From Propionivibrio sp. (lineage in GTDB: Bacteria > Pseudomonadota > Gammaproteobacteria > Burkholderiales > Rhodocyclaceae): 64,000 nucleotides of DNA. A model generated the notes under the pieces. It worked only from the letters and a program-made list of their open reading frames with translations, ran no database searches and was not told where the DNA came from. The translations under genes were made by a program, and so were the position numbers. Positions 24,972-49,200 of this stretch are shown piece after piece. Within the stretch, counting starts at the first letter, position 1, and each line of letters opens with the position of its first letter. The stretch is from the NCBI GenBank assembly GCA_016705685.1, contig JADJLB010000004.1, positions 103,145-167,144 of the forward strand. Direction: 5' to 3'.

Positions 24972-26266
24972 TCAAGAGGATTGCTCCGTGGCGTTTTCAC
25001 CATCGGCGGCAGGATCAGTTAGCCGCCGAACCGTCAATGCACAGCGTTGTTCAATCAAGGCAATGATTCGCTCAACCACTGTATTGTCAGCAAAGCCGCG
25101 TCCAGGATCGGACTGAAGTTTGCGAGCGGCCAGCGGCAGCGACTTCGCCAACTCCAGAATGCGCCTTTTGGCCTGCGCTCTGGCAAGCCCAGCACCTTCT
25201 GCAAACTGATCCCAGTGTCGCGCCTGGATTTCGCTGAATTTGTACTTGCTGCCGATTTTCATCGCCATTTTGGGCGTCAGTGTTGGATACACCGCTGTAG
25301 ATAGCGTGTCGTAGAACGGGGCCAAGACGGGTATCTCGCTTACGTAAAGCAGTGAGAAGTTTTTTGCATGCGCATCGTGATTACCGATCAGCGCATTGAA
25401 GATCACATAATCGTACAAGCGCAGCACCTGTGGCGCACTGGGACGAGTGACACGACGGACCAGATCGAAGCATTGGGCCAGATCTGGCCCTCCTTCGTTT
25501 TGGTATTTCATTTCAGGTTCCACACCAGGGCCTGACAGAAATCTTCTTGATGAAGACGCAATCGGTGCTCTTGCTCATCAGCGACCCGGTCATAGCGCTC
25601 AACCAGCAGGAACGGCCGATTCAAGACGGTGTGAACTCTTGACTTCGCAGGCTTGAGCTGCATGGCCTCAGCCAGTGCCATGCAGAATCCTTCGTTGATC
25701 ACACTGTCCTCAACGGCGTGGATAGGGGGCTTCAAGATGTGGGAGCTGGGCGTGCCATTGCGAGGCAAACCGAGGCGGTCGCCATCGAAAACCACAGGTA
25801 GTTTGTCTTGGGCACCAGCCAAGGAAAGCCGCAGTCCATCTTTTCCAGCCAACATCGGTCGACGCGGCAATTCATCCAGGATGGCAACGACCTCCTCGTC
25901 GCTCAGCCATTGGACATCGTCACCTTGGGTAGACTCATGCAAAACCTGCCCGGGCTCCAGGAACGTCACTGCCCCGGCGCATTCGCCACCGATGTGGCCC
26001 AGGAGCGCAAAGTCATTCTGGCCAGAAATCTGGAATTGCTGCGCGATCAGGCGGCGCATCTTCCCCTCTGGCAACAGACCGGCAAAGAAGGGGCGAGTCT
26101 TGCGATCATCGAACGGCTCTGCTTGCAGGGGCAGCGAGGCGGACAAAGCAACGGCATTCGGCAACGACAGCCAGCCGGGTGCATAGCAAAAACTCAGTCG
26201 GCCATCGATCAGCGCCAAGGTGCCGACACGGTCGGAGAATAACCAGACTTCCAACTCATGCGCCAT
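24972..26266 (-). pseudogene. hipA: HipA-type Ser/Thr kinase toxin, frameshifted
   Basis: HipA kinases phosphorylate glutamyl-tRNA synthetase in E. coli and induce persistence. Residues from the ATG at 26266 (MAHELEVWLFSDRVGTL) through KDGLRLSLAGAQDKLP are HipA N-terminal and ATP-binding regions. At about 25525 one G appears lost (CTGGTG where CTGGGTG is expected), ending this frame. The catalytic half resumes one frame over with GNHDAHAKNFSLLY and APFYDTLSTAVYP and runs to 24972. With the base restored it would be about 430 residues, normal for HipA. Either a recent knockout or an assembly error. Confidence 0.85.
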
Positions 26267-26514
26267 GGTCGCCTCCCTCACGTTGATCGCCGGCGGCAAC
26301 GGATGGCAATCCGCTCACCTGGATCTCTCCACCCAGCGCATCAATAACCCGCAACACGTTTTCTAGTCGCAAGGTGGGCTTACCTGCTTCAAGGTCGACG
26401 ATAAAGCGTACCAACCCCTGCCGCCAGAGCCAACTGAGGCTGCGTCAGTCCGATCTGCTTGCGAGCGACGCGAAGTGCATCGCCGAGTTGTTGAGGTGAT
26501 CGAATGGATGTCAT
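26257..26514 (-). pseudogene. hipB: HipB-type XRE antitoxin, frameshifted
   Basis: From the ATG at 26514 the frame reads MTSIRSPQQLGDALRVARKQ and the helix-turn-helix part QIGLTQPQLALAAGVGT. Near 26406 the frame breaks and continues in another frame as FIVDLEAGKPTLRLENVLRV to a stop at 26257 that overlaps the hipA start. HipB dimers bind operators upstream of hipBA and neutralise HipA. Three palindromes lie immediately upstream. Confidence 0.8.
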
Positions 26515-30530: not shown

Positions 30531-33281
30531 CTACAACGACGCGACCAAATACCGGCCCGCCAGCGCGGACACCGTCGCGTTATGGGCCACCGCATCATGC
30601 GGCACCAGCAGGTATTTCCAAGGTTTACCGCCCTGCGCCTGCGAATATTCGCTGGCGTTTTTACACCACGTTGCCGCCGCGTCGGCTTTGGCCTTCACGT
30701 CGCTGGCCTCCATATCCTTGGCCGCTTTGGTCTCGATAATCAGGTTGTGGTCGACGGTCGCGGCAACAAAGTCCGGCACGTACTCGGGTTGATTGGCGCC
30801 AGAGCGGTAGTAGATGTTGAACTGCCCAGCCACCGGTCGGAACCAGCGCAGCGCGTCGCGCTCCAGCACGCAGGCGAGAACACGCTCGGTGTCGGAATGA
30901 AACTTCTGCACCGGGTAAGCGCACTTGCTGAAACCACCGTATACGTACTGCGCGATCTTGCCTTTCTCGGCGGGGGCCTGATGCAGCGGCAGGATGTCGC
31001 CCTCGGCGGTAAAGGCGCAGTGCTTCAGCGGCGTGAAACCCTGACTGATGACGACCTCGGATTCGGAAATATCCTCGTAGTAGTGCAGCGCCATTTGCAG
31101 ATGGATGTTCTCGGCGATGGTTTTGCCGTAGTTGCCGAGGATGTTGTGCAGCTCGTCGTCGGTTTGCAGGTAGGTCTTGAAATGCGCGACGGCTTGCCCG
31201 GATAGCTCGTAGATCAGCTCGGCGTGCTCGTCGTAGGACACGTCGTCGTAGTTGATGAGTTCGCGGACGATGTAGTTTTCCAGTTGCGATTCCAGCACCG
31301 TCGACGACTGCCCGTACAGCACCTGCTTGCCGGTTTTCAGGCCTTGGCCGACCAGCGCCATGTCCTGTGGCTGGAAGTTCATCTTCGACAGGTCCAGCTT
31401 GAACAGCTTGTAGCCGCTCTTCACCGGGCCTTTCGGCACCACCGAGATACGCGGAATATCAATCGTGTGCTCGATCAGCACCGCCACCGTCTGCTGAACA
31501 ATATCGGCCACAGGCAATGGCCCAGTAGTTGCCAGCAAGTCACCCTGTTTGGGCACCATGCGTTCCTGTACCCGCTGCGTAATCTGCTGCTGAATGCTGG
31601 CCTGTGTCAGTGCTTGGCTGCTGGCAATGAGCGGCTGGCCGTTTGGTCCAGGTTCGCGCTCGCGGCTGATTTCGGCGATCACGTCCATGGCGACTTGGCA
31701 ATCTGCCGCTGCTCGTCGGTCTTGAACACGGTGGTCGGCGCGGATGTGCCGTATTGGGCGCTGCCAGCATTGCCTAGGCACCTGTTGGGTGCCAGCCGTC
31801 AACGTTCCCAACATCGCATTGGCCGTAGGCTGCACCGAAATGCTCTTCAGGCTGCTGCCACTGCCAGTATCCGGCGTCAGCACCAAGGCCTGCATGCGAA
31901 TCGGCGAATCACCGCGCCCCGCCTCGTCGATGACCTCCTGAAACTTGTCGTGAGCAATGATGTTCAGCCGATCCACCACATCGACGCCGGTCTTGCGGCC
32001 ATAGGGCAAACGCAGGCCTCGACCGATGGACTGTTCGATCAGGGTGCGGGCATTGGCGGCGCGCAGCGGCACGATGGTGTAGAGGTTGGTCACGTCCCAG
32101 CCTTCTTTCAGCATGTTGACGTGAATCACGATCTCGGTCGGCTCGTCGTAGCTCTCCACCGCCAGCAAGCGCCGAATCATTTCCTCTTCCTCGGCACCGG
32201 AACGGCTCGAATCGACCTGAATGACCTTGCCCTTGTAACGGCCAGCGAAGAACTCGTTGGATTCAATCGTCGCCATCAACTGGGCCGCGTGCGTGGTGTC
32301 GCGGGCAATGACCAGCATGAAAGGCTTCACCAACTTTTCACCGGTCTGCTGCGCGTAGGTCAGCAAATGGACCTTGGTTTCCTCATGCACCCGCACGCCG
32401 TCTTGCAGCTTGATGGTTTCCAGCGCACCGGCACTATGGGCGCTCGGGTCGAAGTTCTGCTGCGTGACGACCGCCGGTTCCTTGACGAAACCATCCTCGA
32501 TGGCACGCGCCAGCGGATAATCCATCACCACGTTCTTGAACGGCGTCGTCTTGCCGCCGGTGCCTTCAACAAAAGGTGTCGCGGTCAGTTCAAGGCCCAG
32601 CAAGGGGCGCAACTCGTTCAGCGACCGAATGCCCGCACTCGCCCGGTAGCGATGCGACTCGTCCATGATGAGGACCAGATCATCCAGCCCGGCCAGATAC
32701 TCGAAATAGCTCTGCCCAAGGTATTCCGACAGGCGCTTGATCTTCGGCGACTTGCCGCCACGCACCTCGGAATTGATCTTCGAGATGTTGAAGATATTGA
32801 CCTCGATGCCGCCCAGCAGACTCAGGCTGCCGCGCTGCTCGTAGTTGTCGCCGGTAATCACCTCGGGCGGTGTGCTGGCGAATTCGGCAATGCCCTTGAA
32901 TACGTACTTGGGCGAGTTCGGTGAGAAATCGCCGATCAGCTTATCGTAGATGGTCAGGTTCGGCGCCAGCACGAAGAAATGCTTGTAGCCGTAGGCCGCA
33001 TGCAGATAGCTGATGAATGCTCCCATCAAGCGCGTCTTGCCAACGCCGGTTGCCAGCGCGAAACACAAGGACGGGAAGTCGCGCTCGAAGTCGGCCAGTG
33101 TTGGAAACTGGCCGGTCAGCGCGTCCTGCATCGCCTTCAATTCTTCCGGCGACCGCGCTTTCGCGTCGCGCAGCGCGGGCACCTGATCGACCGCCCAATG
33201 CAGGCGGCGCAGGCTTTCGGCTTGTGGCTCGCGCAGACTCAGGCGACCGCTGACCGAGCGAACGATGTTTTCCAGACTCAT
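30531..33281 (-). CDS. Type III restriction enzyme Res subunit (DEAD/DEAH helicase-nuclease)
   Basis: A 916-residue superfamily 2 helicase with Walker A ATGVGKTRLM (about residue 77), DEAH-like MDESHRYR, SAT-region LTATPF, and the late motif QSIGRGLRLPYG. A C-terminal PD-(D/E)xK nuclease site is visible in PEYVPDFVAATVDHNLIIET. With Mod it would cut unmethylated DNA after ATP-driven communication between sites. Between about 31775 and 31692 the natural sequence (NAGSAQYGTSAPTTVFKTDE) lies in another frame, so two compensating indels scramble about 28 residues. Its ATG overlaps the stop of the 62-residue gene. Confidence 0.88.
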   Translation of the reverse strand: MSLENIVRSVSGRLSLREPQAESLRRLHWAVDQVPALRDAKARSPEELKAMQDALTGQFPTLADFERDFPSLCFALATGVGKTRLMGAFISYLHAAYGYKHFFVLAPNLTIYDKLIGDFSPNSPKYVFKGIAEFASTPPEVITGDNYEQRGSLSLLGGIEVNIFNISKINSEVRGGKSPKIKRLSEYLGQSYFEYLAGLDDLVLIMDESHRYRASAGIRSLNELRPLLGLELTATPFVEGTGGKTTPFKNVVMDYPLARAIEDGFVKEPAVVTQQNFDPSAHSAGALETIKLQDGVRVHEETKVHLLTYAQQTGEKLVKPFMLVIARDTTHAAQLMATIESNEFFAGRYKGKVIQVDSSRSGAEEEEMIRRLLAVESYDEPTEIVIHVNMLKEGWDVTNLYTIVPLRAANARTLIEQSIGRGLRLPYGRKTGVDVVDRLNIIAHDKFQEVIDEAGRGDSPIRMQALVLTPDTGSGSSLKSISVQPTANAMLGTLTAGTQQVPRQCWQRPIRHIRADHRVQDRRAAADCQVAMDVIAEISREREPGPNGQPLIASSQALTQASIQQQITQRVQERMVPKQGDLLATTGPLPVADIVQQTVAVLIEHTIDIPRISVVPKGPVKSGYKLFKLDLSKMNFQPQDMALVGQGLKTGKQVLYGQSSTVLESQLENYIVRELINYDDVSYDEHAELIYELSGQAVAHFKTYLQTDDELHNILGNYGKTIAENIHLQMALHYYEDISESEVVISQGFTPLKHCAFTAEGDILPLHQAPAEKGKIAQYVYGGFSKCAYPVQKFHSDTERVLACVLERDALRWFRPVAGQFNIYYRSGANQPEYVPDFVAATVDHNLIIETKAAKDMEASDVKAKADAAATWCKNASEYSQAQGGKPWKYLLVPHDAVAHNATVSALAGRYLVASL

Positions 33282-33466
33282 GCGCTGGCCTTCTTGCGGA
33301 GGTCATCCGCCGTCACCCGAACGATCTTCTTGTCCTGTACCACGACAATCGCCGTGTCGGTCTGCACCGCCGCCTTGCGGGCCATCGCCGCCGCCCGTTT
33401 CATGGCCGCCATCGAGGTCACGAGGTCCTTGTCCTTTGCCTTGCCGAGTTCATGCCGGGTCATCAT
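33278..33466 (-). CDS. Small helical protein between zeta-like kinase and Res
   Basis: A 62-residue basic protein, MTRHELGKAKDKDLVTSM then KRAAAMARKAAVQTDTAIVV, with a C-terminal VVVQDKKIVRVTADDLRKK. It is preceded by GGGGAG and overlaps the zeta-like gene on one side and res on the other by four bases, so all are translationally coupled. No family is recognised. It might be a partner or neutraliser of the kinase-like protein; that is inference from position and size. Confidence 0.65.
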   Translation of the reverse strand: MMTRHELGKAKDKDLVTSMAAMKRAAAMARKAAVQTDTAIVVVQDKKIVRVTADDLRKKASA

Positions 33467-33978
33467 CGTTCTCCCCATTCAATCATTACGGGTTCGTCGC
33501 CCGAGTTGTCGTACAGCGCCCAGGCATCCACCGCCGCACGGTAGTCGCGCTCAAAGTTGGCCTTGCCAGCAGCAAAGCGCCGCCGAATCACTGGTTCCGG
33601 GATGTTGTGCCCGCCCTGCTGTACCCGCTCGGCCACGCGGGCAATTGCCACTTCGGCAGTCGGCAGACCAAGGAAAAACAGGCTGACGTGATAACCCGCC
33701 TGCTGCCATTCGCGGATATGGCGCAGATACGCCACGCCCGAAAGCGTGGTTTCAAAGGCGAAGCTCTCGCCCTTGGCCGCGCAAGCCGCGATCTCCTGCA
33801 ACATCAGGCGTCCCGCCTTCACCGCCGCCGACTCCGGCGCAAACGGCGACAAACCGGCGGCGATCAGATCGGCGTTGATGAAGTGCGGGCACTGCGCCTC
33901 TTCAGGCAGGAAGGCACGGGCGAAGGTGGTTTTACCGGCTCCATTCGGGCCAGCGATGATGATGATTTTCTTGCTCAT
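33463..33978 (-). CDS. Zeta-toxin-like P-loop kinase embedded in the type III RM operon
   Basis: A 171-residue protein with Walker A AGPNGAGKTTFARAF, then FINADLIAAGLSPF and FAFETTLSG, the pattern of zeta-type kinases. Zeta toxins phosphorylate UDP-GlcNAc and poison wall synthesis; shorter zeta-like ATPases of unknown substrate are also common. Its ATG overlaps the mod stop and its stop overlaps the next start, so it is made together with Mod and Res. It could act as a suicide arm or as an accessory ATPase; the sequence does not decide. Confidence 0.8.
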   Translation of the reverse strand: MSKKIIIIAGPNGAGKTTFARAFLPEEAQCPHFINADLIAAGLSPFAPESAAVKAGRLMLQEIAACAAKGESFAFETTLSGVAYLRHIREWQQAGYHVSLFFLGLPTAEVAIARVAERVQQGGHNIPEPVIRRRFAAGKANFERDYRAAVDAWALYDNSGDEPVMIEWGER

Positions 33979-35693
33979 TCGCCGCCCCCATCAAAGAGGC
34001 CTGCTTGACCGGCGTCGACAGCCTTTGCGCCCTTACGCACGCTCGATGCAGGCGCCGCCGCAGTAACAGCAGGTTCCGGCGAAGACGCCATCGGCAGATT
34101 CTCGACGTTCAGGCTGTAATCGTCGTGCCCCCACTCGCAGCTGGACAAGACCATCTTGGGAATCTTCTTGACGGTGAGATTGGGGTAACGGTTTGCGTCG
34201 CCCCGGAATGCCGAACAGCAGACCAGCAGGCTGCGCTCCTTTTCGCCGACTTCATCGCTCAAGGCCTGCAACTGTTCCGGCGTCAGGCTTTGTGTGGTGA
34301 CGTAGATGAAGTCGTTTTCGGTGCTCTTGCCGTGCTGCCAGTAGTGCGCGTCGCTGGGCGCGTAGGTGAAGCCCTCCAGCTTGCAGATCGCCGCCGCCAG
34401 CATTTCGGCGTTGTAGTCCTTGTTGATGACCCACTGGCCCCAACGGTCTTGCTGCAATAGGCTGGGGGCGAGGCGGTAATAGCGGAAGCCACCGCCGCCT
34501 TTCCAGTTCACGGCCTGGCTGATGCCGCCTTGATCCTCGCCGTCGATGACTTTTTTTAGGCGTGGAATAATGTGGGTATGACAGTGTTCGCCCAACTCTA
34601 TCATAATCCAGCGGCGACCCATTTTGTGGGCGACTGCGCCAGTAGTACCAGAACCGGCGAACGAGTCGAGAACGAGATCGCCGGGATTAGTGGCTATTTC
34701 GACTACACGCTTCAACAAGAACTCGGGTTTAGGCGTTGAGAATATTGCTTGCTCATTGAATATGGTTATTTCTTTCTTTGCGTCCTGCGTGTGCCCAACC
34801 TCATCGAACGGCCAGAGTGTTTGCGGGACACGCCCATCCTTTGTCTCGCTTAAGAAACGCTTCAAAGCGGGGCCATTGCTCCCATCTTTTCCCCACCAAA
34901 TCCTTTTTTGAGCGTCGAGCTCAAGGAACTTTTCTTTCGAGACGCGCCAACTTGTTCCGGAGCGAGGGGTGAATACCTTTCCGGTAGGCCCAACGATTTC
35001 GTATATATCTTTTGAAAATCCAGACTTCGCGAACTGTGCTCCCCGCTGCCCTCCGGTCAGACTAGCTAGCAGATTGTCAGATCGCCACAACCCGCGAGGG
35101 TCATTGTCAACATTCTTATAATTACTGTTCTGCTTTTCAGTGCGCGGCAAAGGATTCGGAATCCATTTTTCCGCGTTCTTCGAGAAAACCAATACGTGGT
35201 CATGATCTGTAGAAAAATAGCGCGCCGCATTTTTAGGGGCATAAACTTTCTGCCATATAACATTAGCAATGAAGTTGGCTCGTCCAAAAATCTCATCGCA
35301 TAGTACCTTGAGGTAGTGCGCCTCGTTATCGTCAATCGTTATCCAAAGCGACCCATCCTCCGCCATCAAGCGCCGAATAATCTCCAAACGATCACGCATC
35401 AATGAGAGCCAGATTGAATGCTCCACGCCATCATCGTAGTGAGCAAATGCGCTGCCGGTGTTGTATGGCGGGTCGATGAATACGCACTTCACCTTGCCCG
35501 CGTATTCCTGCTCCAACGCCTTCAACGCCAGCAGGTTGTCGCCGAAGATGAGTTGGTTGTCGAAAAAGTCGGCGCTGGTGACACGGTGTTTCGCGTGATA
35601 GCTCTTCTCCGGGTCGCCCAACAAAATGCGCGGTTCCAGCTTCGGTCGCGCATCCTTGCCAATCCATGTCAGTTCTAGTTTTTGCTTTGCCAT
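33975..35693 (-). CDS. Type III DNA-adenine methyltransferase Mod (beta class)
   Basis: A 572-residue methyltransferase. The catalytic motif DPPYNTG lies at about residues 74-80 and the SAM-binding motif DSFAGSGTTGAVAHKMG far downstream near residue 350, the beta-class order of type III Mod proteins. The central part between them should contain the target-recognition domain. It methylates one strand of an asymmetric site, and provides recognition for Res. Intact, starting six bases after the PHP-ATPase gene. Confidence 0.92.
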   Translation of the reverse strand: MAKQKLELTWIGKDARPKLEPRILLGDPEKSYHAKHRVTSADFFDNQLIFGDNLLALKALEQEYAGKVKCVFIDPPYNTGSAFAHYDDGVEHSIWLSLMRDRLEIIRRLMAEDGSLWITIDDNEAHYLKVLCDEIFGRANFIANVIWQKVYAPKNAARYFSTDHDHVLVFSKNAEKWIPNPLPRTEKQNSNYKNVDNDPRGLWRSDNLLASLTGGQRGAQFAKSGFSKDIYEIVGPTGKVFTPRSGTSWRVSKEKFLELDAQKRIWWGKDGSNGPALKRFLSETKDGRVPQTLWPFDEVGHTQDAKKEITIFNEQAIFSTPKPEFLLKRVVEIATNPGDLVLDSFAGSGTTGAVAHKMGRRWIMIELGEHCHTHIIPRLKKVIDGEDQGGISQAVNWKGGGGFRYYRLAPSLLQQDRWGQWVINKDYNAEMLAAAICKLEGFTYAPSDAHYWQHGKSTENDFIYVTTQSLTPEQLQALSDEVGEKERSLLVCCSAFRGDANRYPNLTVKKIPKMVLSSCEWGHDDYSLNVENLPMASSPEPAVTAAAPASSVRKGAKAVDAGQAGLFDGGGE

Positions 35694-35699
35694 AATCGC

Positions 35700-38600
35700 C
35701 TAGTGGTACTTAACGCGTCGATTGTCGAATGCTGGTTTTGTCCCTTCCAGAACATTGACGACGTGAGAATTAGTAATTGGGTTTTCAATTGAGCCTGCGC
35801 GATAGGTAATCTTTGACGCGTTTTTTCGATCAAAACTTGAGTAGATGACCTGCTCAGCGTCGCAAACTACTGCCAGATTAGGGTTATGTGTAACCATGAT
35901 GATCTGTCGCTTCTTTTTTGCTTCACTCAGTACGGGCACCAGCAGGCTCACCACAGTTTCGTTATCGAGGTTTTCTTCAGGCTGATCCAGAATGATTGGA
36001 TTTCTGCCCTTATCCACCAGAAGATAGAAGATCAACAGCAATGCACCTCGCTGGCCCGGAGAAAGCTGTTCGATTTGCGTATCCTGAAACAATAGCGAGT
36101 ACCTCGGCTCCAAGAATGACAAACCAAAGAGCAGGTCATAAACATCACTCACCGCTTTGTCTTTTCTTAAGATGGACGCGATACCAATTGCACCTTTGCT
36201 ACCGCCAGTGGCCGCGCCAACGATTTTTTCGTGCAGCGTCGTGATGAACCCTAAAATATCCGCACGCTTATTGAAGTCGTATTGTTCGGCTACCTTTCTC
36301 ACAGCACCGTAGCTTTCATCTTCTCCACGAAAGTCCCCAGAGTTTTGTTTGATGAGCGCGAAGAGGGAACCAGCAACAGAATCTGATGAACCGCCCAACG
36401 TGGCCTGAAACTGAAGTTTGTATTCATCACGAATCAAACTATTTCCTTGAATGAGGTCTTGTACGGGCGCAAAAGCTCTTCTCGTGCTTTCCGCTGAGCG
36501 TTCAGAATGTCAAATATTTCACCGGCCAGACTCAACCGTTGATGCCGTTGCTGATCGAGACTCTTTTGGCAAGCTTTCAAGCTGAGCAATTCTTGCTTGC
36601 AGGCCTTTTTGGGTTTCTGGAGCGTCAGCCGCTCCTGTCAATTCAGCGAGTTTTGCTTCCCAAACCTCAATTGTTTTCAGGTACTGCTGGTAGTGTTGCT
36701 GTGGGGCATTTAATTTTGCATTGAGCGCGACTTGTTCGACCTGGAGCTTCGACTTCTCAACGGCCTCGTTGGCTACCGTACTCTTTCGATTTGCCTGTTC
36801 AAGAGGTATAGCAGACGCCAACTGATCCAAAGGCTGGTCGTTCACGGAGAACGTAACCAAATCCGTAACCTTTAAGCCAAGTGTTTCTAAGTCTTTCGCA
36901 GTGTCGTCTTGGAACTGCTTATGTGATCGTTCCAGCAAACGCATCCGTTCACGCACGTTTTGGATCGCTTTAACCTTCCCTGCGAGAATCAAATCAACAT
37001 TGGCATTTAACGCCGACTTATCTTCAATCGCTTTAATCTTCGCAGAGATTTCGTCCAATGCACTTGCAACAGCCTTCTGATCTTCAGTAAGTTCAGCGGC
37101 GGGTTTTTCAATTGCCGCAGGCTTGATCTTATTGTGTTCGTCAATTTGTCTAGCCTTGAGATTCAGGAGCTCTTGCAAAGCCTGCTTAACCTCTGGCTGG
37201 AGTTGTTCCTCCATGCCAGCAATCTCTTGGTTCAGCTTTTTCAAGTCTTTCCGGAACTCGCTCAACTGATCGCGATAGCTGCTTTCTTGTTGTTCAATCA
37301 ACTGGTCGAAGTCTAGTGCGCCAAGACGAATTGCTTCGCTGGCATGCGAAAATATTACTGCTCTAAGTTCGCGCTCAAACGCATTTGTGCGTCCGGAAAC
37401 GTGGTCGTTGCACAACTCTTCAAAGTGACCTTGAGGGATGTATCGGACGAGCTCTACTTTATCGTCGGGTGGATCATCGTTGAGGTTTCGCTGTACGGTA
37501 CTTGCGTCGCACCAGGTCAACGTACCGGAAAAGTGCTTCGCTGGTTCCCCCGACTTGCCTCGGAATCGGTCTTTTTTTAGGAATGAGAAATGATTTTTCT
37601 GCCGTGAGTTTCCGAGCAGAGCGATGACATCTGCTAACGCACTTTTCCCGCTGCCCTTATTTCCGATAATTGCTATCAGATCTGGATTTAAGGGCAGTGC
37701 GCTTCCATCGAGCCATTTCCCAATGTTCGTAGCAGCAGGATTTTTTTGTACGTCTACCGAGTCAATAAAATACGTCTTGTTTTCGGCAATTTCGGCAAGC
37801 TTCTGAGGGCACTCGCCAATGAACGAACGTTTTGCGGGTTCCATGATGGCTTGAAGCAAACCATGAAATGTGGGGTCCGCTTTTATCCAAGTCGCTTTTC
37901 CAGAAGGGAACTTTCCGTAGTCCGCAAACGAATGAGCATCGCTCCCGGACACAGCCAAATGCGGCTTATTTCCTAATGCGGCTTGGAACGATCCGAACCA
38001 TTTTTTATTGTTCTCGGTCTCAATCCCAACAAACGCTTCCCATTGCTCTTGTCGACGCGTTTCAAAGATCGGCGACGATTGCATAAATCCGACTACATAA
38101 GCGTAGTGCTTTGCCCATTCAGCATCAGCGAGACCGTTGTATGTATCCCACGGCATGAAAGCGATTGCCTTGCCATCGGGCACCTTTGAAATAGCTGTCT
38201 TGTAGGTGTCCGGGATTATTTCTGCGCACTTTGAACCAGCCAGCAGGGCCGCAGAATCATCCGCTTTAACGACTTCAGCCTTCATCCCATGCTTTGTCAG
38301 CAGATCATCACCGAGCTTCTGCCGTGCAAGCCGCCGAAGGCATTCGTCAGAGAGTGCCTGCTCAATGAGGGCAACTCGAAGGTCAGATTTGAAATTGTTT
38401 AAATCTTGATCCGAAACGTCATCCGCAAAAACGACGTGGGCATTGAGCCTGTAACTCGTCGGCGAAACGAGCCTAAGTTCAATACCCGGCAAGACTAACT
38501 TATTGAGCTTTGGTGCGCCGGCTTGAGCTAACCTTTTCTTAAGGGCAAACCAGCCGTCAAAAGTCCAATAATCCATCAAAACAAAGACCGAAGGCACAGC

Positions 38601-38765
38601 TTGATTTATAGCGGTAATCATTTGGTCGACAGTCTGCACAACTTCAGCATCCGTCATGTCAGAAAATCGCTTCCCGCTCCACTGAAACGACGCTGGTGTA
38701 TGCACGTGAAAATCCCACTGCCGCCATTCAGAGCCACGTGGAAATAGATTGCTAGCGTTAAGCAT
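35700..38765 (-). CDS. PHP-domain AAA/SMC-like ATPase (TrlF-like), two frameshifts
   Basis: The first 740 residues contain an N-terminal PHP phosphoesterase site (WDFHVHTPASF, later SGSDAHSFADYGKF), Walker A GNKGSGKSALADVI near residue 370, and long coiled coils. The frame breaks near 36540, continues as QQRHQRLSLAGEIFDILNAQ in a second frame, and changes again near 36470 to FAPVQDLIQGNSLIRDEYK. The C-terminal part has the ABC-type signature LSPGQRGALLL and Walker B NPIILDQPEENLDNETVV. Together it is about 1020 residues: a PHP nuclease/phosphatase joined to an SMC/Rad50-like ATPase, similar to what I know as TrlF-family proteins. It probably senses or processes nucleic acid. Confidence 0.75.
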
Positions 38766-38779
38766 CTCGCGTCCTCGAT

Positions 38780-40078
38780 TTATAACGTCAGTGTTTTAGG
38801 TTGTGGTGCATCTGAACTTAAGGCAGGCAGCTCCAAACCTTCAATCTCCTGCAACGACTTCCCCGCAATCCCTTGCAGATCGCCGTACATGCCGACCGTC
38901 GCCCCCATGACACGCTCGATTTGTTCCTCGCGCTTGGCCCACTGCTTCATGATCGCCTTGCGCTCCTTGTCGAGGTCTTCCTGCATGGTCGAAAACGCTT
39001 CGACGATAGCCTCGACGCGATGCCGGAAGCGCGGACCGGTCAGGTACTGGTAAATCATTTCGGTCTTGGTCTGCTGGCCCTCAGATACCTGCCGCGCCAT
39101 GCCGACCTGTAGCAGCGTGTGACGAAGGACAGTCGCTACCGGCAAAGCCGCACGCGGGCTGGTTACCCAAACGCCGTCGACGACATCGAAGGCTTCAACG
39201 CCTTTGGGCAGCACCTGACTGACGAGGACGGAAATCTCGGCTTTGGCGGTACGCTGGTCCTCGCGCAACTTGATGAGCCAGCCGTCGCTCCAATTCTTGG
39301 TGCGTTTGGATTCCCAAAGGATCGTTCCGCTCTGCTGGCCGCTCTGGCTGACCACGCGTTGCAGGACATCGCCGCCGAATTCGCCCTTGCGGACGGGTTC
39401 GATAGAGTCGAACGGAAACTTGGCACGCAGCAGGTTTTCAAGCTCAAGCTCCTGCACTTCGCCTTGTAGCTGCTGGGAACCTTGCTCGGCCTTCTGCTTG
39501 AGTTCTTCGATCTTTTGCTGCATCGAGGCGATGGTCTGATCCTTTTCCATGACCTTCAGCTTCAGCCCTTCTTCGGCTTCGCGCTTCGCTTTTTCGCGGA
39601 CATCGCCAAGACCTTCCTGCACGCGCTTTTCAACGGTCAGTTCCAGTTCGCGCTTGGCGTCGTCGAGTTCGCGCTGCTTCTTGATGAGTTCGGCCTGCGC
39701 CTGTTGGGCCTCGGCGAGCTTGGCATCGCGGACCTTGAGCACTTCCTGAAGCTCGGCCAGTTCCCGTGCTTTGTTGTCCAACTCGTTGGCTGCCGCCTGC
39801 TTGGCCTTCTTGGATTCTTCCTCGATGACGCGGGAACGCTCGGCTTTGAGCTGGGCGGCGACCTGATCGGCCACCTGTGTTTCAAGGTTGCGCTTGGCTT
39901 CGGCGACTTGCTTTTCCTTTTCGCGGATGCCTTGCTCGCGCTTGGCGATCTCTTCATCCTTCTGCGATAGCTGTTGCTCGAACTGTTTTCTGGTTGCTGC
40001 AATTAGCGGAGCCGCCAACGATTCGGTCAACCGGATTTCGGTCTTGCAGTTCGGGCATGTAATTGTTGGTTCTGTCAT
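38780..40078 (-). CDS. DUF2130 family protein, coiled coil plus restriction-like nuclease domain
   Basis: A 432-residue protein. It starts with a CxxC pair (TITCPNCKTEIRL), followed by a very long Glu/Lys-rich coiled coil (about 30-215). A C-terminal domain then reads EFGGDVLQRVV and GTILWESKRTKNW, which resembles a PD-(D/E)xK active site. DUF2130 has no settled function. GGGAGG precedes the ATG at 40078. It lies 12 bases after the SNF2 gene and 14 before the PHP-ATPase, so it belongs to the same operon. Confidence 0.85.
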   Translation of the reverse strand: MTEPTITCPNCKTEIRLTESLAAPLIAATRKQFEQQLSQKDEEIAKREQGIREKEKQVAEAKRNLETQVADQVAAQLKAERSRVIEEESKKAKQAAANELDNKARELAELQEVLKVRDAKLAEAQQAQAELIKKQRELDDAKRELELTVEKRVQEGLGDVREKAKREAEEGLKLKVMEKDQTIASMQQKIEELKQKAEQGSQQLQGEVQELELENLLRAKFPFDSIEPVRKGEFGGDVLQRVVSQSGQQSGTILWESKRTKNWSDGWLIKLREDQRTAKAEISVLVSQVLPKGVEAFDVVDGVWVTSPRAALPVATVLRHTLLQVGMARQVSEGQQTKTEMIYQYLTGPRFRHRVEAIVEAFSTMQEDLDKERKAIMKQWAKREEQIERVMGATVGMYGDLQGIAGKSLQEIEGLELPALSSDAPQPKTLTL

Positions 40079-40090
40079 GCCACCTCCCAT

Positions 40091-43055
40091 TCACAGCTGA
40101 ACAAGGTTCTCTGAGATATATTTTTGGTCCAACTGGCCCTCAAGCTCTTCAATCAGTTGGTCACGTCTTGGCTTGAATTTCGTCTTGCCGGTTAAACAGT
40201 TCTCGGCGCTTCTTGTCGCGCTGCCCTTCAAGATCGCGTTGTTCTTTTTGCGCTTGCAGCTTGTCGGCCAGGTTGCCGCCCCCTTGCCCTTCAGGTGCGA
40301 GCTTCCTTGATTTGCCGGTCAAGGTCTTTGATCTCCGCTCAAGGCCAACCTTCAGGTCGTCGGCCCACGCATCGAGGCTTTTCGGTCTCCTGTGAGAAGA
40401 AAGTCAGGTTGCGCGACTCCAGATCGGTAATTACCAGTGCCTTTTGCTGGTCGATCTGCTGTTGCAGCGCTGGCGCAATGACAATATTGGGCACATTGGC
40501 GGCGGCGAAATCGAGCATGTTCTGCTGCGCCGGGGCAAGGTCATCCGAGAGCGATTGCTGAACGGTGCGCCGTCGACACGAGGCAACGGCACGGTATGGC
40601 CGGGCATGCCGAGCAGACGGTCAGTTACGTCGGCATCGAAGACGTTTCCATCTGCGTCAATGGCAGCTGCCAGCAGATGCTCTTCGGTCGCGCCCAGTGA
40701 ATGGATGCGCAAGTGCTGAACCATCAGCGTGCCAGTCTGGCCCCGCAAGGCCTCGATGACTGACACCTTCGCCCCGTAGGCGTCGTAGTCGAGCACCAGC
40801 TTGCTGGGGGTGAGCGGCACACGTTGGGCGTAATCAATCAGCCCCTGCGCGAGTGGGTGCGCCATCCGGTAGATGTGGGCCTCTTCGCTCCGGCGCGGCA
40901 GTTCATAACGGCCCAAGGGAATCGCGGTCGCGTTTCCGTCCTGCACGCCATCGGGCAATCTGGTCAGTAGGAAGCCGGTATCGTCCTCGTCAAAGCTCGC
41001 ATACCCGTTGAGCGCGGCGCGGGTAAAACGCATCAACAGGCGTTCCAGTCTGCCGAGCGAGGCGTGGGCATCCATGTTGCGAAGGCGTAGCCGCTCTTGC
41101 ACGTCCTCGTCGAAGTTTTCCAGCAGCGCCTTGCGGGCGTTGAGCATGGCGTCTGAAATCTCGCCGGCCAGATCGAGTTGCAGTTGCTCGAAGGCGGTAT
41201 GAATGGCCTCGGGATGGCGGCAGGTTTGATAAATCTCGGCGATGCGGCGCTCGAAATCGACGCCGGACTCCACGGCCCCCAGCACTTCATCGCTGGCCCC
41301 GAATACGCCATCGAATAGCTGGAACTTCTGCGCCAGCAGTTGATAGACGCGCCGGTCGGCATCATTGTCACGATTCAGGAAGTTGACGACGACAACATCG
41401 TGCTTCTGCCCGTAGCGGTGGCAACGCCCGATGCGCTGTTCGATGCGCTGCGGATTCCACGGCAAGTCGTAGTTGATGACCATCGAGCAGAACTGAAGGT
41501 TGATGCCCTCAGCGCCTGCTTCTGTGGCAATCATGATGCTGCCCTGCTCGCGGAAGTAATCGACCAACGCGGCGCGGGTATCGGCAGTGCGGGAGCCTGA
41601 TACCCGGTCGGTGCCGGCATGCCGGGCGATCCACTCGGCGTAGATTTCCTTGGCCTTGGCGTCCGTGTTGCTGCCGTTGAAGAGCACCACGCCGGAGCCA
41701 TGATCGGTGCCTGCCAACAGCTTCAGCAGGTATTCCTGCGTGCGGCGGGATTCGGTAAAGACAATGGCCTTCTTCGCCGCGCCGAGTTCGTCCAGTTTCT
41801 TGAAGGCCACGCTGAGGGCTTGTAACAACGCGGTGCCCTTGGCGTTCTCGGTGATGGAAATGGCCAGATTGCGGAACGATTCGAGTTCGCCGACTTCGGC
41901 CCGGATGGCGGTGATTTCGGCTACGGTTGATACCTTGGTGGTGCCAACAGCGACGGCATCCAGCTCGTCAGCCAGTTCGTCGAGGGCTTCATAGTCCTGG
42001 TCTAGTTCGTCTGCAAGGTCGGTAGTCGCCGCCTTTTCGTCGAGCGTCTGGCCTAGGCGTTTGATGAGGGTTTCCAGTGCCCCGGCGATGGCGAAGGTGG
42101 AAGACGCCAGCAGCTTGCGCAGGACCAGGGTTATCAGTTGCCGCTGGCTGTTGGGCAACGCATACAGCGAAGGCCGTTGCAGGAATTCCGAAACGTAGTT
42201 GTAGAGCTTGGTTTCGTCGGCACCGGGCACAAACTCTTGCAGCATCGGGATGCGCCGGGTGTATTTGACGTAGGCCTCGACCTGTCGGCGCAGCGTGCGC
42301 TTGCAGATCGGGGCGATACGGTTCTTCAAAGCGTCGAAACTGGCGGCGTCCTTGAGTTGCCCGAATTGAGCACGGAAGCTATCCAGATCGCCGAATACGC
42401 GCTCGTCGACAAAGCTGACCAGTCCATATAGTTCCAGCAAGGAATTCTGGAGCGGCGTTGCCGTCAGCAAGACCTTGTGCGGCAGCGTGAGTGCATCGCG
42501 CAGGATACGGGCCGTCTTGTTTTCCGGCTTATAGACATTGCGCAGGCGGTGCGCTTCGTCGATGACTACCAAGTCCCACGGCACGGATTGCACGTCCTTG
42601 GCTTTGCCTGCCGCAAACTGGTAGGAGCAGATGAGCACCGTGGCGCTATTGCCTGCGAGGTCAAACGGGTTGGTGGCGCCTTCCTTGATGGCTTGGCGGT
42701 AGGACTTGGCTTCAAGCAGGCTGGCGGCGATACCGAACTTGTCCGCCAGTTCCTGATGCCACTGCTTGCGCAGGTTGGCCGGGGTGATGACCAGAATTCG
42801 ACGTTTGCGCTCGGCCCATTTCTGGGCGATCAACAAACCTGCTTCGATGGTTTTGCCGAGACCGACTTCGTCCGCAAGGATGGCGCCCTTGGACAGCGGG
42901 TTACTCGTCGCGAACAGGGCGGCATCGATCTGGTGCGGGTTCAAGTCGACTTGAGCATCCAGCAGCGCACCGGCCATGCGGTCCATGGAATTGGACGCGG
43001 CACGGCGGGTTAATTGATGCGCGAAATACGCCAGCTGGTGCGGACTGTAGCTCAT
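40091..43055 (-). CDS. SNF2/RapA-like helicase, C-terminus broken by several indels
   Basis: About 860 residues are intact, with Walker A LADEVGLGKTIEAG, Walker B DEAHRLRN, LLTATPLQNS, and the helicase C-terminal motifs ATEAGAEGINLQFC and QRIGRCHRYGQ. This is an ATP-dependent DNA translocase of the type found in DISARM and other defence loci. After about 40560 the continuation (QQSLSDDLAPAQQNMLDF, QALVITDLESRNL-like sequence, then RDQLIEELEGQLDQKYISEN) hops between frames at least four times before a natural stop at 40091, just ahead of DUF2130. The expected full length is about 985 residues with a C-terminal coiled coil. Confidence 0.85.
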
Positions 43056-43102: not shown

Positions 43103-43492
43103 CTATCGTCCCCAGTTGCCTTCAAAGTCGAACGAGAGTTGCCGCTGATGCCTGATGGCGAGGAGGTAAATCGTTCCGCCAATCGGCGCGTAGAGCATCA
43201 AGTAGTCCTTGAGGACGTATTCGCGCAAGGCGTCCGTGTCTGGTGTCAGCGCCGACAACTTTGCACGGAGGGTTGTCAGCGCGTTGGTGGTCTCGACCGA
43301 GCGCGGCTGGCGGGCCATAAACGGCCTGCTCATTTCGGGGAAGCGCTCAAGGTTGGGAATCACCGTTTCGAGCAATTCATCCAGCAAGCCATCGAAGGTC
43401 TGCGGCGCTTCCACTTCGGTCAGGAAAAGTTCGATGCCTTCGAGGTTACGCTCGAAATTTGCGGTGAATTTGACGACAGGTTTTTTTGCCAC
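43103..43492 (-). CDS. RelE/ParE-family toxin
   Basis: A 129-residue protein starting MAKKPVVKFTANFERNLEGI, with LREYVLKDYLMLYAPIGGTI and IRHQRQLSFDF, the layout of ParE/RelE-type plasmid-stabilisation toxins. It follows its antitoxin gene by 18 bases. ParE members poison gyrase and RelE members cut mRNA; the sequence does not decide. It is slightly longer than most members. Confidence 0.85.
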   Translation of the reverse strand: MAKKPVVKFTANFERNLEGIELFLTEVEAPQTFDGLLDELLETVIPNLERFPEMSRPFMARQPRSVETTNALTTLRAKLSALTPDTDALREYVLKDYLMLYAPIGGTIYLLAIRHQRQLSFDFEGNWGR

Positions 43493-43510
43493 AAGCAGCC
43501 CCGCCCCAAC

Positions 43511-43801
43511 TTATGCGCTGCGGCGGCGCTTGATAGCCTGAATCACACTGCGGGCGTCCTTCACCTTGCCAGCGGCAACGTCGTCGAGCCCCTTGGAGGC
43601 CTCGTCGATCAGCAGCAAGTGAATGCGCTCGCGCTCCAGCTGGTGGTAGTAGTCCAGACGGCTGGCGTCGATCAGGGCGATATAGCTCTCGCCGTTCTTG
43701 GTGATGATCTTCTCGGCGCCGCCCTTAACCTCTTCAGCCAGTTCGGAGAAGTTCGCTCGGGCGTGCGAGAGAGGGATAACGTCGCTTGCGGAAATTCCCA
43801 T
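43511..43801 (-). CDS. Phd/YefM-family antitoxin
   Basis: A 96-residue antitoxin starting MGISASDVIPLSHARANFSE with AGGAGG six bases upstream, then IITKNGESYIALIDASRLDY typical of Phd/YefM. It forms an operon with the downstream ParE/RelE toxin, just upstream of the SNF2-type III RM cluster, and may help retain that cluster. Confidence 0.88.
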   Translation of the reverse strand: MGISASDVIPLSHARANFSELAEEVKGGAEKIITKNGESYIALIDASRLDYYHQLERERIHLLLIDEASKGLDDVAAGKVKDARSVIQAIKRRRSA

Positions 43802-43843
43802 AACAGCCTCCTGAACCACACAAGATGTGCAGTATTTTGTACA

Positions 43844-44575
43844 TCATACGCTTTGGCAGTCAGGGGCGAAAGTGAAACCTGCGCGACTCCTTGGGGTGTT
43901 TAGCCGGGACATGACGGCATGCAGTTGGTTCGCTATGTGCCGATCCAACGCATCGAAGACATCAAACATCGGAGTGTCGCCGTTGAAGCGGTTGAACCAT
44001 TCTTCGTTGGAGAACGCCATCGCCAAGTCTGCTTCGCGCTGAAGACGATTCATCACGGCATCGGCCCTGCGATTACGGACGCCCTCAAAAGCGAAGGGCG
44101 TTACCACGGCGGCAACCGTAACTACTCCGGCATCACGCGCTAACCGGGACAAAATCGGCGTAACGCCGCTTCCTGATCCACCGCCGAGTCCAGCGAGTAG
44201 AACGACCATGTCGGAACCGGCGAGCAATTCCGCCAAGATGGCTCGATGGTGCAAACAGGCAGCGCGTGCTGCATTGACTCGTCCGCCAGCACGAACCGGA
44301 GCCAGCATCAGTGTCTTGATCGGTGCCAGCGCAGGACAGGCATCGTTGGCAATATCAACGAACTCCAACGCGTGCGGGCCGAGATCGATGCAAACATAGC
44401 TCAGTGCCGCACCCGCTCGATCCAGAATATTGCTCGCCCGTAGCGCAGTGGCAAGGTTGCAGCCAGCCGCACCGATGCCGATGATCTTGCATGAGGGGGC
44501 TGGCGATGCGAAAGCTGGAAGACTCAGGCTGGCAACACCGGCACCGAACGTTTGCAGGAACATCCTGCGATCCAT
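43844..44575 (-). CDS. Single-domain FtsZ/tubulin-like GTPase with Tat-like leader
   Basis: A 243-residue protein. The core follows FtsZ: KIIGIGAAGCNLATAL (T1 loop region), LAGLGGGSGSGVTPILSRLA (the GGGTGTG-type T4 phosphate loop), VVTPFAFEGVRNRRADA, and NGDTPMFDVFDALDRHIANQ. It ends where the FtsZ GTPase domain ends; the T7-containing C-terminal domain is missing or minimal. Uniquely, it begins MDRRMFLQTFGAGVASLSLP, resembling a twin-arginine signal with AFASPA as a cleavage site. Possible uses include export as a folded protein or membrane tethering. A MazE-like gene lies 27 bases upstream on the same strand. Function unknown. Confidence 0.8.
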   Translation of the reverse strand: MDRRMFLQTFGAGVASLSLPAFASPAPSCKIIGIGAAGCNLATALRASNILDRAGAALSYVCIDLGPHALEFVDIANDACPALAPIKTLMLAPVRAGGRVNAARAACLHHRAILAELLAGSDMVVLLAGLGGGSGSGVTPILSRLARDAGVVTVAAVVTPFAFEGVRNRRADAVMNRLQREADLAMAFSNEEWFNRFNGDTPMFDVFDALDRHIANQLHAVMSRLNTPRSRAGFTFAPDCQSV

Positions 44576-46004: not shown

Positions 46005-46096
<92 letters not shown>

Positions 46097-46209: not shown

Positions 46210-49200
46210 TCACTCTGCCCATTTTCGTGCGTTACGGAACATGCGCATCCAGGGGGAATCGTCGCCCCAATCTGCCGGATGCCATGACATCTGCACGCTG
46301 CGGAAAACGCGCTCGGGGTGCGGCATCATGATGGTGAAGCGCCCGTCGGCCGTGGTCACGCCGGTGAGCCCACCCGGCGAGCCGTTCGGATTGTATGGGT
46401 AGACCTCGCTAGGCTGGCCGGCATTGTCCAGGAAGCGCATCGTGACCAGCGCCTTTGTCTGCTGGTCTACCGAATCGAATACGGCCTGACCTTCACCGTG
46501 CGAGACGACCACCGGCAAACGGCTGCCGGTCATACCATCGAAGAAGAGCGACGGTGATTTGGGCAGTTCGACCATGGTGAATCGCGCTTCGAACTGCTCG
46601 ACCTTGTTGCGCTCGAAACGCGGCCACGCATCGGCCCCGGGAATCAGCGTCTTCAAGGCACTCATCATCTGGCAACCATTGCAGACGCCTAGCGCGAAGG
46701 TGTCGCCTCGTCCGAAAAAGCCTGAAAACTCGTCGCGCGCACGCGCATTGAAGAGGATCGTTCTGGCCCAGCCCTTGCCGGCACCGAGCACATCGCCGTA
46801 GGAGAAGCCGCCGCAGGCCACCGCGCCCCGGAAGCCGGAGAGTGAAACGCGGCCGGAGAGAATATCGCTCATGTGGACGTCGACCGCGGCAAACCCGGCG
46901 TGGTCGAAGGCCGCCGCCATTTCGACGTGGCCGTTTACGCCCTGTTCGCGCAGGATGGCGACCTGGGGACGCGCTCCGCTGTTGATGAACGGGGCCGCGA
47001 TGTCTTCCGCCGGATCGAATGTCAACGAGACCGACAGGCCGGCATCGGCCGCATCGAGAATGCGGTCGTATTCCTGCTGCGCGCATTCGGGGTTATCCCG
47101 CAGCGCCTGCATGCGGTAGCTTGTCTCCGACCAGGCGCGCTGCACGTCGATGCGCTTCTCGCGAAATGCCGCTTTGGCATTGCGGATGATGCGGATTTCG
47201 TTCCACGGGTTGGGCGATCCGATGAAATGGGTACATGCCCCGAGGCCGGCAGCACGCAGCACGCCCATCACCGGCGCTCGCTCGCTGCGACGGATCTGCA
47301 GCACGGCGCCAAGTTCTTCATTGAACAGAGCGCACATCAAATGCTCGAAGTCACGGGCCGCCGAGCAGGTTCGGCTTTTTCTCGGCGCCGTCGACATCGT
47401 TGGTCAGCGGGTCGTAACACAGGCCGTCCATATCCACCGACACACCGCAATGTGCGGCGAAAGCCATTTCGGCGATGGTGGCGAAGAGGCCGCCGTCCGA
47501 GCGGTCGTGGTAGGCGAGCAAGCGATTGTCGCTGGCGAGCTGCTGTACGGCGCCGAAAAAGGCCGCCAGCTTTTCCGGATCGTCGACGTCCGGAGCTTCC
47601 GATCCGGTGGCGTTGAACACTTGCACCAGCGCCGAACCGCCCAGACGATTCCTGCCCGCACCAAGATCGATCAGCAGCAGATCGGTTTCTCCGGCGTCGA
47701 GCCGAAGTTGCGGGGTCAAGGTTTGGCGGGCGTCCGACACCGGGGAAAACGCCGTGACCACCAGCGATAGCGGCGAGACGACCTGCTTCTTGAGTCCGTC
47801 GTCCTCCCATGCTGTACGCATCGAGAGCGAATCCTTGCCGACCGGAATCGAAACACCGATCTGCTGGCAGAGGTCGGAAACGGCGCGCACGGTGTCGAAC
47901 AGACAGGCATCCTCGCCCGGCGAACCGGCGGCGGCCATCCAGTTGGCCGAGAGCTTCACATCGCCCAGCCCGGCGATCCTGGCCGCAGCAATGTTGGTCA
48001 GCGCCTCACCCACCGCCATGCGTCCTGAAGCCGGCGCATTGAGGATTGCCAGCGGCGTACGCTCGCCCATGGCAAAGGCTTCGCCCAGATTTGTCTGATA
48101 GCCCATTGTCGTTACGGCCACGTCGGAGACAGGCACTTGCCAGGGGCCGACCATCTGGTCGCGCGCCGTCAGGCCGCCGACCGAACGGTCGCCAATCGAA
48201 ATCAGGAAGGTCTTGTCGGCCACGGCCGGCAGACGCAGCACGCGATAGGCGGCATCCTTGAGTTCGACTGCGGTCGGGTCGAAGGCAATCCCCGGTGAGG
48301 GCAGATGGGCTGCTTCGCGCGTCATGCGCGGTGGCCTGCCGAGCAGCGCATCCATGTCCATATCGACCGGGTGATCGCCGAAATGACGGTCGGTGACGCG
48401 CAGGCGGTGATCGGCGGTGGCCACGCCGACCACCGCCAGAGGGGGCGCTCGCGCGCGCAAATGGCGGTGACTTCGGGCAGCCTGCTCGGCGGAATGGCCA
48501 GCACGTAACGCTCCTGGGCTTCGTTGCTCCAGATCTCGGCGGGCGACATGCCGGGTTCTTCGATCTTCACGTCGCGCAACTCGAAATGGGCGCCGCAACC
48601 GGCGCCGTGCGCTAACTCGGGAAAGGCATTGGAGAGGCCGCCGGCGCCAACGTCATGCACGGATAAAATCGGATTGCCGTTGCCGGGCGTCGCGGCATCA
48701 TCCTCCAGCTTGCCCAGGGGGGATCCCATTTGCCAGCAGCGGTCGAGTACTTCCTGCGCGCGTCGCTGCATTTCCGCGTTGCCGCGCTGCACTGACGCAA
48801 AATCGAGGTCTTCGCTGTTGCTGCCGGTGCTCATCGAACTGGCCGCGCCGCCGCCCAGGCCAATCAGCATGCCCGGCCCGCCAAGCTGGATGAGCAGGGT
48901 GCCCGGCGGGAAGGTCGTGGGCTTGATCGATTGATCGGCGGCAATATTGCCGATTCCGCCGGCGACCATGATCGGCTTGTGATAGCCGCGCACGACAGCC
49001 GTCGCGCCTTCGCCGACACGCTGCTCGTATGTGCGGAAGTAACCGCAGAGATTGGGCCGACCAGAACTCGTTGTTGAAGGCCGCTGCGCCAATCGGGCCT
49101 TCGAGCATGATCTCTAGCGCCGAGGCGATGCGCGACGGGCGGCCATACGCGGCCATCTCGTGCTCCCAGGGTTGCAGCGCTTCGGGCAGGTACAGGTTGG

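Follow-up and report, generated by a model that had tools for sequence, protein, structure and literature searches.

A Propionivibrio operon in which a SNF2-Mod-Res restriction core probably hosts interchangeable defence genes at two junctions

The stretch of Propionivibrio sp. DNA analysed here (the window; 64,000 nucleotides, positions 103,145 to 167,144 of contig JADJLB010000004.1, assembly GCA_016705685.1) contains an operon of seven genes. These encode, in order, a SNF2-family ATPase, a DUF2130 protein, a TrlF-family protein combining PHP and SMC-like ATPase parts, a type III modification methyltransferase (Mod), a zeta-like kinase, a small protein, and a type III restriction subunit (Res). 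Judged by comparison with related loci, the conserved unit is a three-gene core, SNF2-Mod-Res; the genes for DUF2130, TrlF, the zeta-like kinase, and the small protein are passengers, making the seven genes a core plus passengers and not one fixed system. We consider it probable that the core is mobile and that two fixed junctions within it, SNF2/Mod and Mod/Res, host unrelated, interchangeable defence genes. What can be read directly from the sequences is a conserved core in conserved order, passengers of recognised families that share its strand, passenger sets that vary among related cores with edges falling at gene boundaries, and the catalytic motifs of the three core proteins.

All seven genes lie on the minus strand (Table 1), in the order given by an earlier note on this DNA. 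Three four-base overlaps (Mod/zeta, zeta/small, and small/Res) link four genes, again as that note described; the second holds for the 62-residue start of the small open reading frame (ORF) at 33466, an alternative start lying at 33478. Gaps of 6-14 bases had also been described. This is right for DUF2130/TrlF (14 bases) and TrlF/Mod (6 bases), but SNF2 and DUF2130 are separated by 340 bases because the SNF2 tail changes frame several times. None of the eight operon ORFs is a chance frame, since every one of them has relatives in other genomes.

Table 1. Genes of the operon and of the adjoining toxin-antitoxin pair (positions in the window).
Feature	Position	Strand	Basis and remarks
SNF2/RapA-family ATPase, core gene 1	40431..43055	-	874-residue ORF; homology continues in changing frames to ~40078
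DUF2130 protein, SNF2-Mod junction passenger	38780..40090	-	PF09903 1.2e-83; long helix/coiled coil plus PD-(D/E)xK-like motif (GGD...WESK)
TrlF-family PHP + SMC-like ATPase, SNF2-Mod junction passenger	35700..38765	-	NF045780; ORFs 38765-36519 and 36437-35700
Type III Mod, core gene 2, predicted beta-class amino-methyltransferase	33975..35693	-	MTase_III 782.6 bits; PF01555; DPPY, FAGSGT
Zeta-like P-loop kinase, Mod-Res junction passenger	33463..33978	-	PF06414 1.2e-10; predicted model
Kinase partner of 62-66 residues, candidate antitoxin, Mod-Res junction passenger	33278..33478	-	Small ORF follows zeta relatives elsewhere
Type III Res, core gene 3, predicted helicase + PD-(D/E)xK nuclease motif	30531..33281	-	REase_III 646 bits; ATGVGKT, DESH, PDF...ETK
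Phd/YefM antitoxin	43511-43819	-	PF02604 4.4e-08
ParE toxin	43103-43492	-	PF05016 9.2e-07

The three core proteins are well defined by family. SNF2 matches PF00176 (6.5e-34) and contains the motifs DEVGLGKT and DEAH. Its best matches are DrmD-type models (PADLOC, 668 bits; NCBIfam, 678 bits, below the cut-off of 950), and it cross-matches the BREX helicase BrxH, a DrmA model (131 bits), and HmaA (164 bits). Mod, with DPPY at residue 74 and FAGSGT at residue 345, belongs to the type III Mod family in PADLOC, and Res, whose gene adjoins mod, to the type III Res family. The earlier description of a type III Mod/Res operon surrounded by nucleic-acid enzymes thus agrees with both family matches and motifs.

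Conservation of the core was assessed in 85 related loci, comprising the 80 most similar of 575 found in a genome scan and five plasmid relatives. The plasmids come from the 20 matches listed among 935 matching records, the other 15 being 14 Salmonella records of near-equal score and one from Roseomonas. Res lies downstream of Mod in all 63 loci with at least 4 kb of downstream sequence, and a tandem SNF2 gene precedes Mod in 45 of the 55 loci with at least 9 kb upstream. On the latter count the operon fits, by gene arrangement, the SNF2-bearing type III group (Eco86II-like), defined by an extra SF2 ATPase gene 5' of mod and conserved with it. All five plasmid relatives carry SNF2, Mod, and Res in the same order; the genes between SNF2 and Mod differ in three of them, and two have none there. 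Four of 101 Escherichia coli records were read, and all four contain genes between SNF2 and Mod: an Abi-family gene with a hypothetical gene in one locus, and an AAA ATPase with an S8 peptidase in three.

Passengers were counted in the 53 of 85 loci that show all three core genes. The 32 loci left out comprise 30 without SNF2 (20 of these with less than 9 kb upstream) and four without Res, two belonging to both groups. Extra ORFs occur between SNF2 and Mod in 48/53 loci, between Mod and Res in 25/53, and at neither junction in 5/53; passengers of recognised families occur at the two junctions in 39/53 and 15/53 loci, respectively. Between SNF2 and Mod these are AIPR (15 loci), DUF2130 (6), SMC-like ATPases (6), TrlF (4), OLD-like AAA proteins (4), DUF4276 (3), and others, while the Mod-Res junction is occupied by DUF1016 (7), RhuM (5), zeta (2), and others. 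By Pfam and PADLOC, the passengers include AbiU/AIPR, PDC-S02 (DUF1016), PDC-S05 (RhuM), IetAS, HEC-01, and Ppl. Among ten passenger proteins scanned against defence-system models, matches were found to IetS (1364.5 bits), Ppl (452 bits, locus L021 of Polaromonas), HEC-01, and AbiU.

The passengers are oriented and positioned as part of the operon. Passenger ORFs were called from 50 residues upwards on the core strand and from 120 on the other, a procedure that favours the core strand and biases the resulting figure of 149 co-directional ORFs among 152. Recognised-family matches inside the operons, which carry no such strand bias, are on the core's strand in 74 of 74 cases. Representatives of these families gave the 74 matches in 183 kb of operon interior and six in 532 kb of flank, a contrast inflated by the choice of representatives from inside operons. 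Close spacing like that of the Propionivibrio operon is usual in these relatives: when each ORF is counted from its earliest possible start codon, a 4-base overlap between the Mod stop and the first Mod-Res passenger is seen in 10/23 loci, and one of 16 bases between the SNF2 stop and the first SNF2-Mod passenger in 15/47.

The earlier note had read the seven genes as one system. Such an obligate system, with all proteins in one pathway, would account for the tight spacing and overlaps, and the Thiobacillus locus L029 (SNF2-DUF2130-TrlF-Mod-DUF1016-Res) does share the order of the Propionivibrio operon up to Mod. However, DUF2130 is found in 6/53 loci, TrlF in 4/53, and zeta in only 2/53; DUF2130 and TrlF occur together in one locus, and all three together in none. 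Whether the three upstream genes travel with mod and res had been put forward as a check on the one-system idea, and the answer is divided: SNF2 does, whereas DUF2130 and TrlF seldom do. A draft genome of the same genus moreover has a different gene in place of the zeta and small genes, as described below. We therefore regard a single obligate pathway as very unlikely and favour a core with exchangeable passengers.

Exchange of passengers was examined on a FastTree phylogeny of the three core proteins (54 rows), with 200 shuffles for comparison. TrlF requires five state changes for five carriers (shuffled mean 4.8), RhuM five for five (4.9), the SMC-like ATPase six for six (5.8), and DUF1016 six for seven (6.8). 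These values are near the shuffled means, so all four families look randomly distributed on the core tree. The cores nearest to that of the Propionivibrio operon (L021, L019, and L033) carry other passenger sets, though L033 does have DUF2130. The nearest relatives of the passengers themselves are found in L029 for TrlF, in L026 and L033 for DUF2130, and in L043 for zeta.

The same-genus draft, G007, provides a closer comparison. It carries RhuM between Mod and Res where the window has the zeta and small genes. At the protein level its Res is 88% identical (residues 1-549) and its Mod 77% and 93% identical over two parts. DNA homology stops at 34089, inside the Mod tail, and resumes at 33282, one base before the Res start (33281); at the other end of mod it resumes at 35695, two bases before the Mod start (35693). 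A divergent radical-SAM gene lies upstream of Mod in G007; no SNF2, DUF2130, or TrlF was detected on the two short contigs that hold the operon, and no close SNF2 match in the draft. When seven further genomes of the genus were compared, the only SNF2 matches exceeding 50% identity were two short stretches: a start fragment in G009 (L173; 86%, residues 1-87, with one stop inside) and another in G010 (L172; 65%, residues 5-145). Both are possibly remnants of this operon.

Of the passengers at the SNF2-Mod junction, the DUF2130 protein has D241, E260, and K262 invariant in all nine aligned sequences. Its predicted model has a predicted local distance difference test score (pLDDT) below 50 over most of the PD-(D/E)xK-like domain and is too poor for a fold search. 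No diverse DUF2130 relatives were found in a viral scan. The first part of TrlF scores 375.6 bits against NF045780 (cut-off 350) and the second part 275.9 bits, family membership being reached by the first part alone. The NCBIfam name presumably derives from the Photorhabdus Temperature Restricting Locus, which comprises trlR, trlF, and trlG and restricts growth at 36 C; the part of the published account consulted traces the growth arrest to TrlG and reports no role found for TrlF (PMC7554251). Passengers with AlbA and RecG-C-terminal-like domains, reminiscent of TrlG, are present in L076 (8707-9999), L044, and L056.

The zeta-like kinase of the Mod-Res junction is 171 residues long and scores above the PF06414 cut-off. 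Structures of PezT and zeta (2p5t, 3q8x, 1gvn) match its predicted model (mean pLDDT 70), and polynucleotide kinase does so nearly as well. Kinase family and paired small partner together fit a putative zeta-type toxin-antitoxin pair. Among 299 genomes of the phylum, 29 contain relatives of the kinase, its own genome included, and 20 such loci were read, one being this operon. An ORF of 60-87 residues overlaps the kinase end in 15 of the 19 others, a count made without a chance control; it is in line with the earlier suggestion that the zeta-like and small genes form a pair. Most of these small ORFs look alike by eye, and tblastn confirms the small protein in 5/19. Another Mod relative adjoins 3/19 of these loci, and on Synechocystis plasmid pSYSG the zeta and small genes are preceded, on their own strand, by a gene for a type I specificity subunit. 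The small gene is kept in L015, with a UPF0175/DUF3368 pair at the kinase position. The tested pair Slr8014/Ssr8013 (PMC4963859) is of another kind, with a PIN domain. A second zeta relative (67%) lies among peptide-transporter genes elsewhere in the same genome (L171, ~3957-4487, minus strand).

The earlier note overlooked frame breaks in SNF2, TrlF, and Res that appear on comparison with intact relatives. TrlF, listed there as one gene, consists of two ORFs in the same frame, corresponding to positions 1-667 and 710-944 of the NF045780 model. Alignments to full-length relatives span 38765 to 35703 and place two apparent frame changes near 36560-36450; identity to the intact counterpart in L029 is 72%. 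Several frame changes affect the SNF2 tail between ~40600 and 40080, and Res contains an apparent compensating pair of frame changes near 31700 that leaves its ORF open. Assembly insertions and deletions (indels) are probably the cause, being likelier than decay because two genes outside the operon are broken in the same way: the housekeeping gene purL (46210-50236), which lies 3 kb upstream of SNF2, is spread across three ORFs, and hipA (24972-26299) is divided between two. Indel errors are also suggested by the way the frames shift and are then restored, protein similarity staying high between the breaks. If SNF2, TrlF, and Res were true pseudogenes, frame changes in three genes would be explained, and the same genome does hold a second, truncated, frame-changed Res copy at the edge of contig C17 (L103, 1-1658; DNA 87-92% identical). 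Given the state of purL and hipA we consider decay quite unlikely and set the pseudogene reading aside.

From the families and motifs, Mod would mark host DNA at an asymmetric site and Mod-Res would cut unmarked phage DNA, with the SNF2 translocase assisting in an unspecified way. The passengers may act as second-line effectors that share the core's transcript and come into play when restriction fails: DUF2130 as a putative nuclease, TrlF as a putative ATPase distantly like the anti-phage protein Ppl, and the zeta-like protein as a growth-arresting kinase that its small partner would hold off. By inserting at the junctions, passengers would stay co-translated while the core remained whole. SNF2 probably assists restriction and does not switch cargo, since passenger-free cores keep SNF2 and some cores in which SNF2 was not detected carry passengers. 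On the same observations, an absolute coupling of cargo to SNF2 finds no support.

Alternatively, the core might control its passengers, the restriction subunits or SNF2 holding the effectors off and releasing them when restriction is blocked, by analogy with PrrI and PrrC. This precedent and the coupling hypothesis (PMC3710099, PMC3506569; both consulted in part) argue for control, as do the overlapping gene ends and the concentration of recognised passengers inside the operon, a contrast subject to the bias given above. Control by the core nevertheless appears unlikely. Varied families are represented among the passengers, several with matches to complete systems (IetAS, HEC-01), and the zeta gene brings its own partner. 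SNF2 persists without passengers in the 5/53 loci and in 6 of 16 complete viral-contig loci, where only 443-485 bases separate the SNF2 match from Mod and Res is close behind. AIPR also precedes Mod without detected SNF2 in the cyanobacterial loci L014, L016, and L048, the first two having less than 7 kb upstream. Similarly unlikely, in our estimation, is the broader idea of SNF2-Mod-Res as a general effector platform, in which the junctions would be dedicated cargo bays and SNF2 or Mod-Res would sense blocked restriction and license whichever effector is loaded; if true, one control logic would drive many unrelated toxins. The favoured arrangement of a restriction core with exchangeable passengers turns a list of seven genes into a testable rule, namely that SNF2-Mod-Res intervals yield ready-delimited candidate defence genes. 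It is also relevant to what the extra ATPase of type III systems does: kept with and without passengers, that ATPase probably serves restriction itself.

Several observations weigh against this arrangement. SNF2 was not seen in 10/55 loci. Among 44 loci on viral contigs, SNF2 is present in 13 of the 31 with enough upstream sequence and Res in 19/33; many of these loci show neither, and the sample includes less similar Mods. Some of the counted passenger ORFs, being short, may be spurious, and the counting rule favoured the core strand. AIPR requires nine state changes on the core tree for 15 carriers (shuffles 10 to 15, mean 13.4), a clear phylogenetic signal, and DUF2130 four for seven (shuffles 4 to 7, mean 6.7); because both keep this signal, passengers are partly inherited with the core. 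The exchange seen in G007 needs confirmation, since the draft is 78% complete and its operon is spread over two short contigs, with Mod cut between them. The frame breaks mean that the Propionivibrio copy may not be intact. The only TrlF with published genetics was itself not mutated and, in the part of that study consulted, is not needed to explain the Temperature Restricting Locus mutants (PMC7554251). Finally, the coupling of core and passengers is read from gene order, and the activities of all parts are predictions.

The Phd/YefM-ParE pair (43103-43819, minus strand) ends 47 bases before SNF2 and is possibly a further passenger. A VapBC pair occupies the same position in a Roseomonas relative. 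An ORF with a tubulin/FtsZ GTPase domain (43844-44575, minus strand) also adjoins the operon, and a tRNA-Ser gene (GGA; 46006-46096, minus strand), a usual island site, lies between purL and the operon. No direct repeats of at least 18 bases marking an integrated island were found at this tRNA gene. Further away is a 953-residue protein with TPR and CHAT domains (53354-56215, minus strand).

The core and the idea of embedding are already known, and the two-junction arrangement and the DUF2130/TrlF/zeta set were not found in print. The literature searched describes neither of the latter, though this is weak evidence as it covered few subscription papers and no bioRxiv. The earlier note had judged the operon not to be the gene set of BREX, DISARM, or Wadjet, and we agree. 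DISARM was rejected by component, with SNF2 scoring 678 bits against the DrmD_b cut-off of 950 and no DrmA or DrmB among the matches listed for the ten ORFs scanned (25 best where the list was long), apart from the SNF2 cross-match to DrmA. The same listed matches include no BREX or Wadjet models other than the SNF2 cross-match to BrxH.

Hma resembles the operon in its helicase-methylase core, and passengers of the related loci match the PADLOC models HEC-01, PDC-S02, and PDC-S05. A 2024 preprint by Payne reportedly describes defences embedded in Hma systems ('guilt by embedding'), to which the HEC and PDC model names are presumably tied. Hma was rejected as an assignment. The methyltransferase here is an N6_N4_Mtase, HmaB is not among the 25 best of 66 PADLOC matches (HmaC was not searched for separately), and SNF2 fits DrmD (668 bits) far better than HmaA (164 bits). 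According to the portion of the Hma literature consulted, HmaB is a 5-methylcytosine methyltransferase (PMC8565338), in contrast to the predicted beta-class N6/N4 Mod of this operon.

Zeta/PezT pairs share kinase family, fold, and a small partner ORF with the Mod-Res passengers, and differ in that the partner here lies 3' of the kinase and has 62-66 residues and in that the zeta protein has only 171. The Photorhabdus locus is comparable through TrlG, whose RecG-like helicase domain is likened, by domain description, to the passengers of L044, L056, and L076. It differs in that the part of its description consulted gives no Mod or Res, the one exception being a Yersinia ruckeri plasmid that carries two small genes for type I methylase subunits (PMC7554251).

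PrrI/PrrC and the type I and III restriction systems with AIPR, HEPN, or RhuM are alike in having toxin-like genes inside restriction operons, repeatedly replaced. Makarova (2012) and Anantharaman (2013) proposed the coupling of restriction with embedded toxins, naming AIPR and RhuM and linking AIPR to type III systems; the sections consulted do not describe a SNF2-Mod-Res core with two fixed junctions or the DUF2130/TrlF/zeta set (PMC3506569, PMC3710099).

Closest is the three-gene type III group of Murray et al. (2021), including Eco86II and BspHIV, in which a gene for an extra SF2 helicase-like ATPase lies 5' of mod, near Mod and Res in more than 500 genomes (PMC8259958). In the text of that paper as consulted, this ATPase is not homologous to Res, lacks a PD-ExK motif, and is of unknown function; it is dispensable for methylation, and mass spectrometry did not detect it in partially purified Eco86II that cut DNA partially. 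The same text reports no passenger genes and contains neither 'toxin' nor 'intervening'. Members of the group make N4-methylcytosine (m4C), and the six m4C enzymes are described with an FGG motif I (PMC8259958). Motif I of Mod is FAG in the Propionivibrio operon and in 73 of its 85 relatives (FGG in two, ten unmatched), which, if anything, would speak against m4C, without deciding the methylated base. Compared by gene arrangement and not by sequence, the Murray group and the core of the present operon share the same three-gene anatomy.

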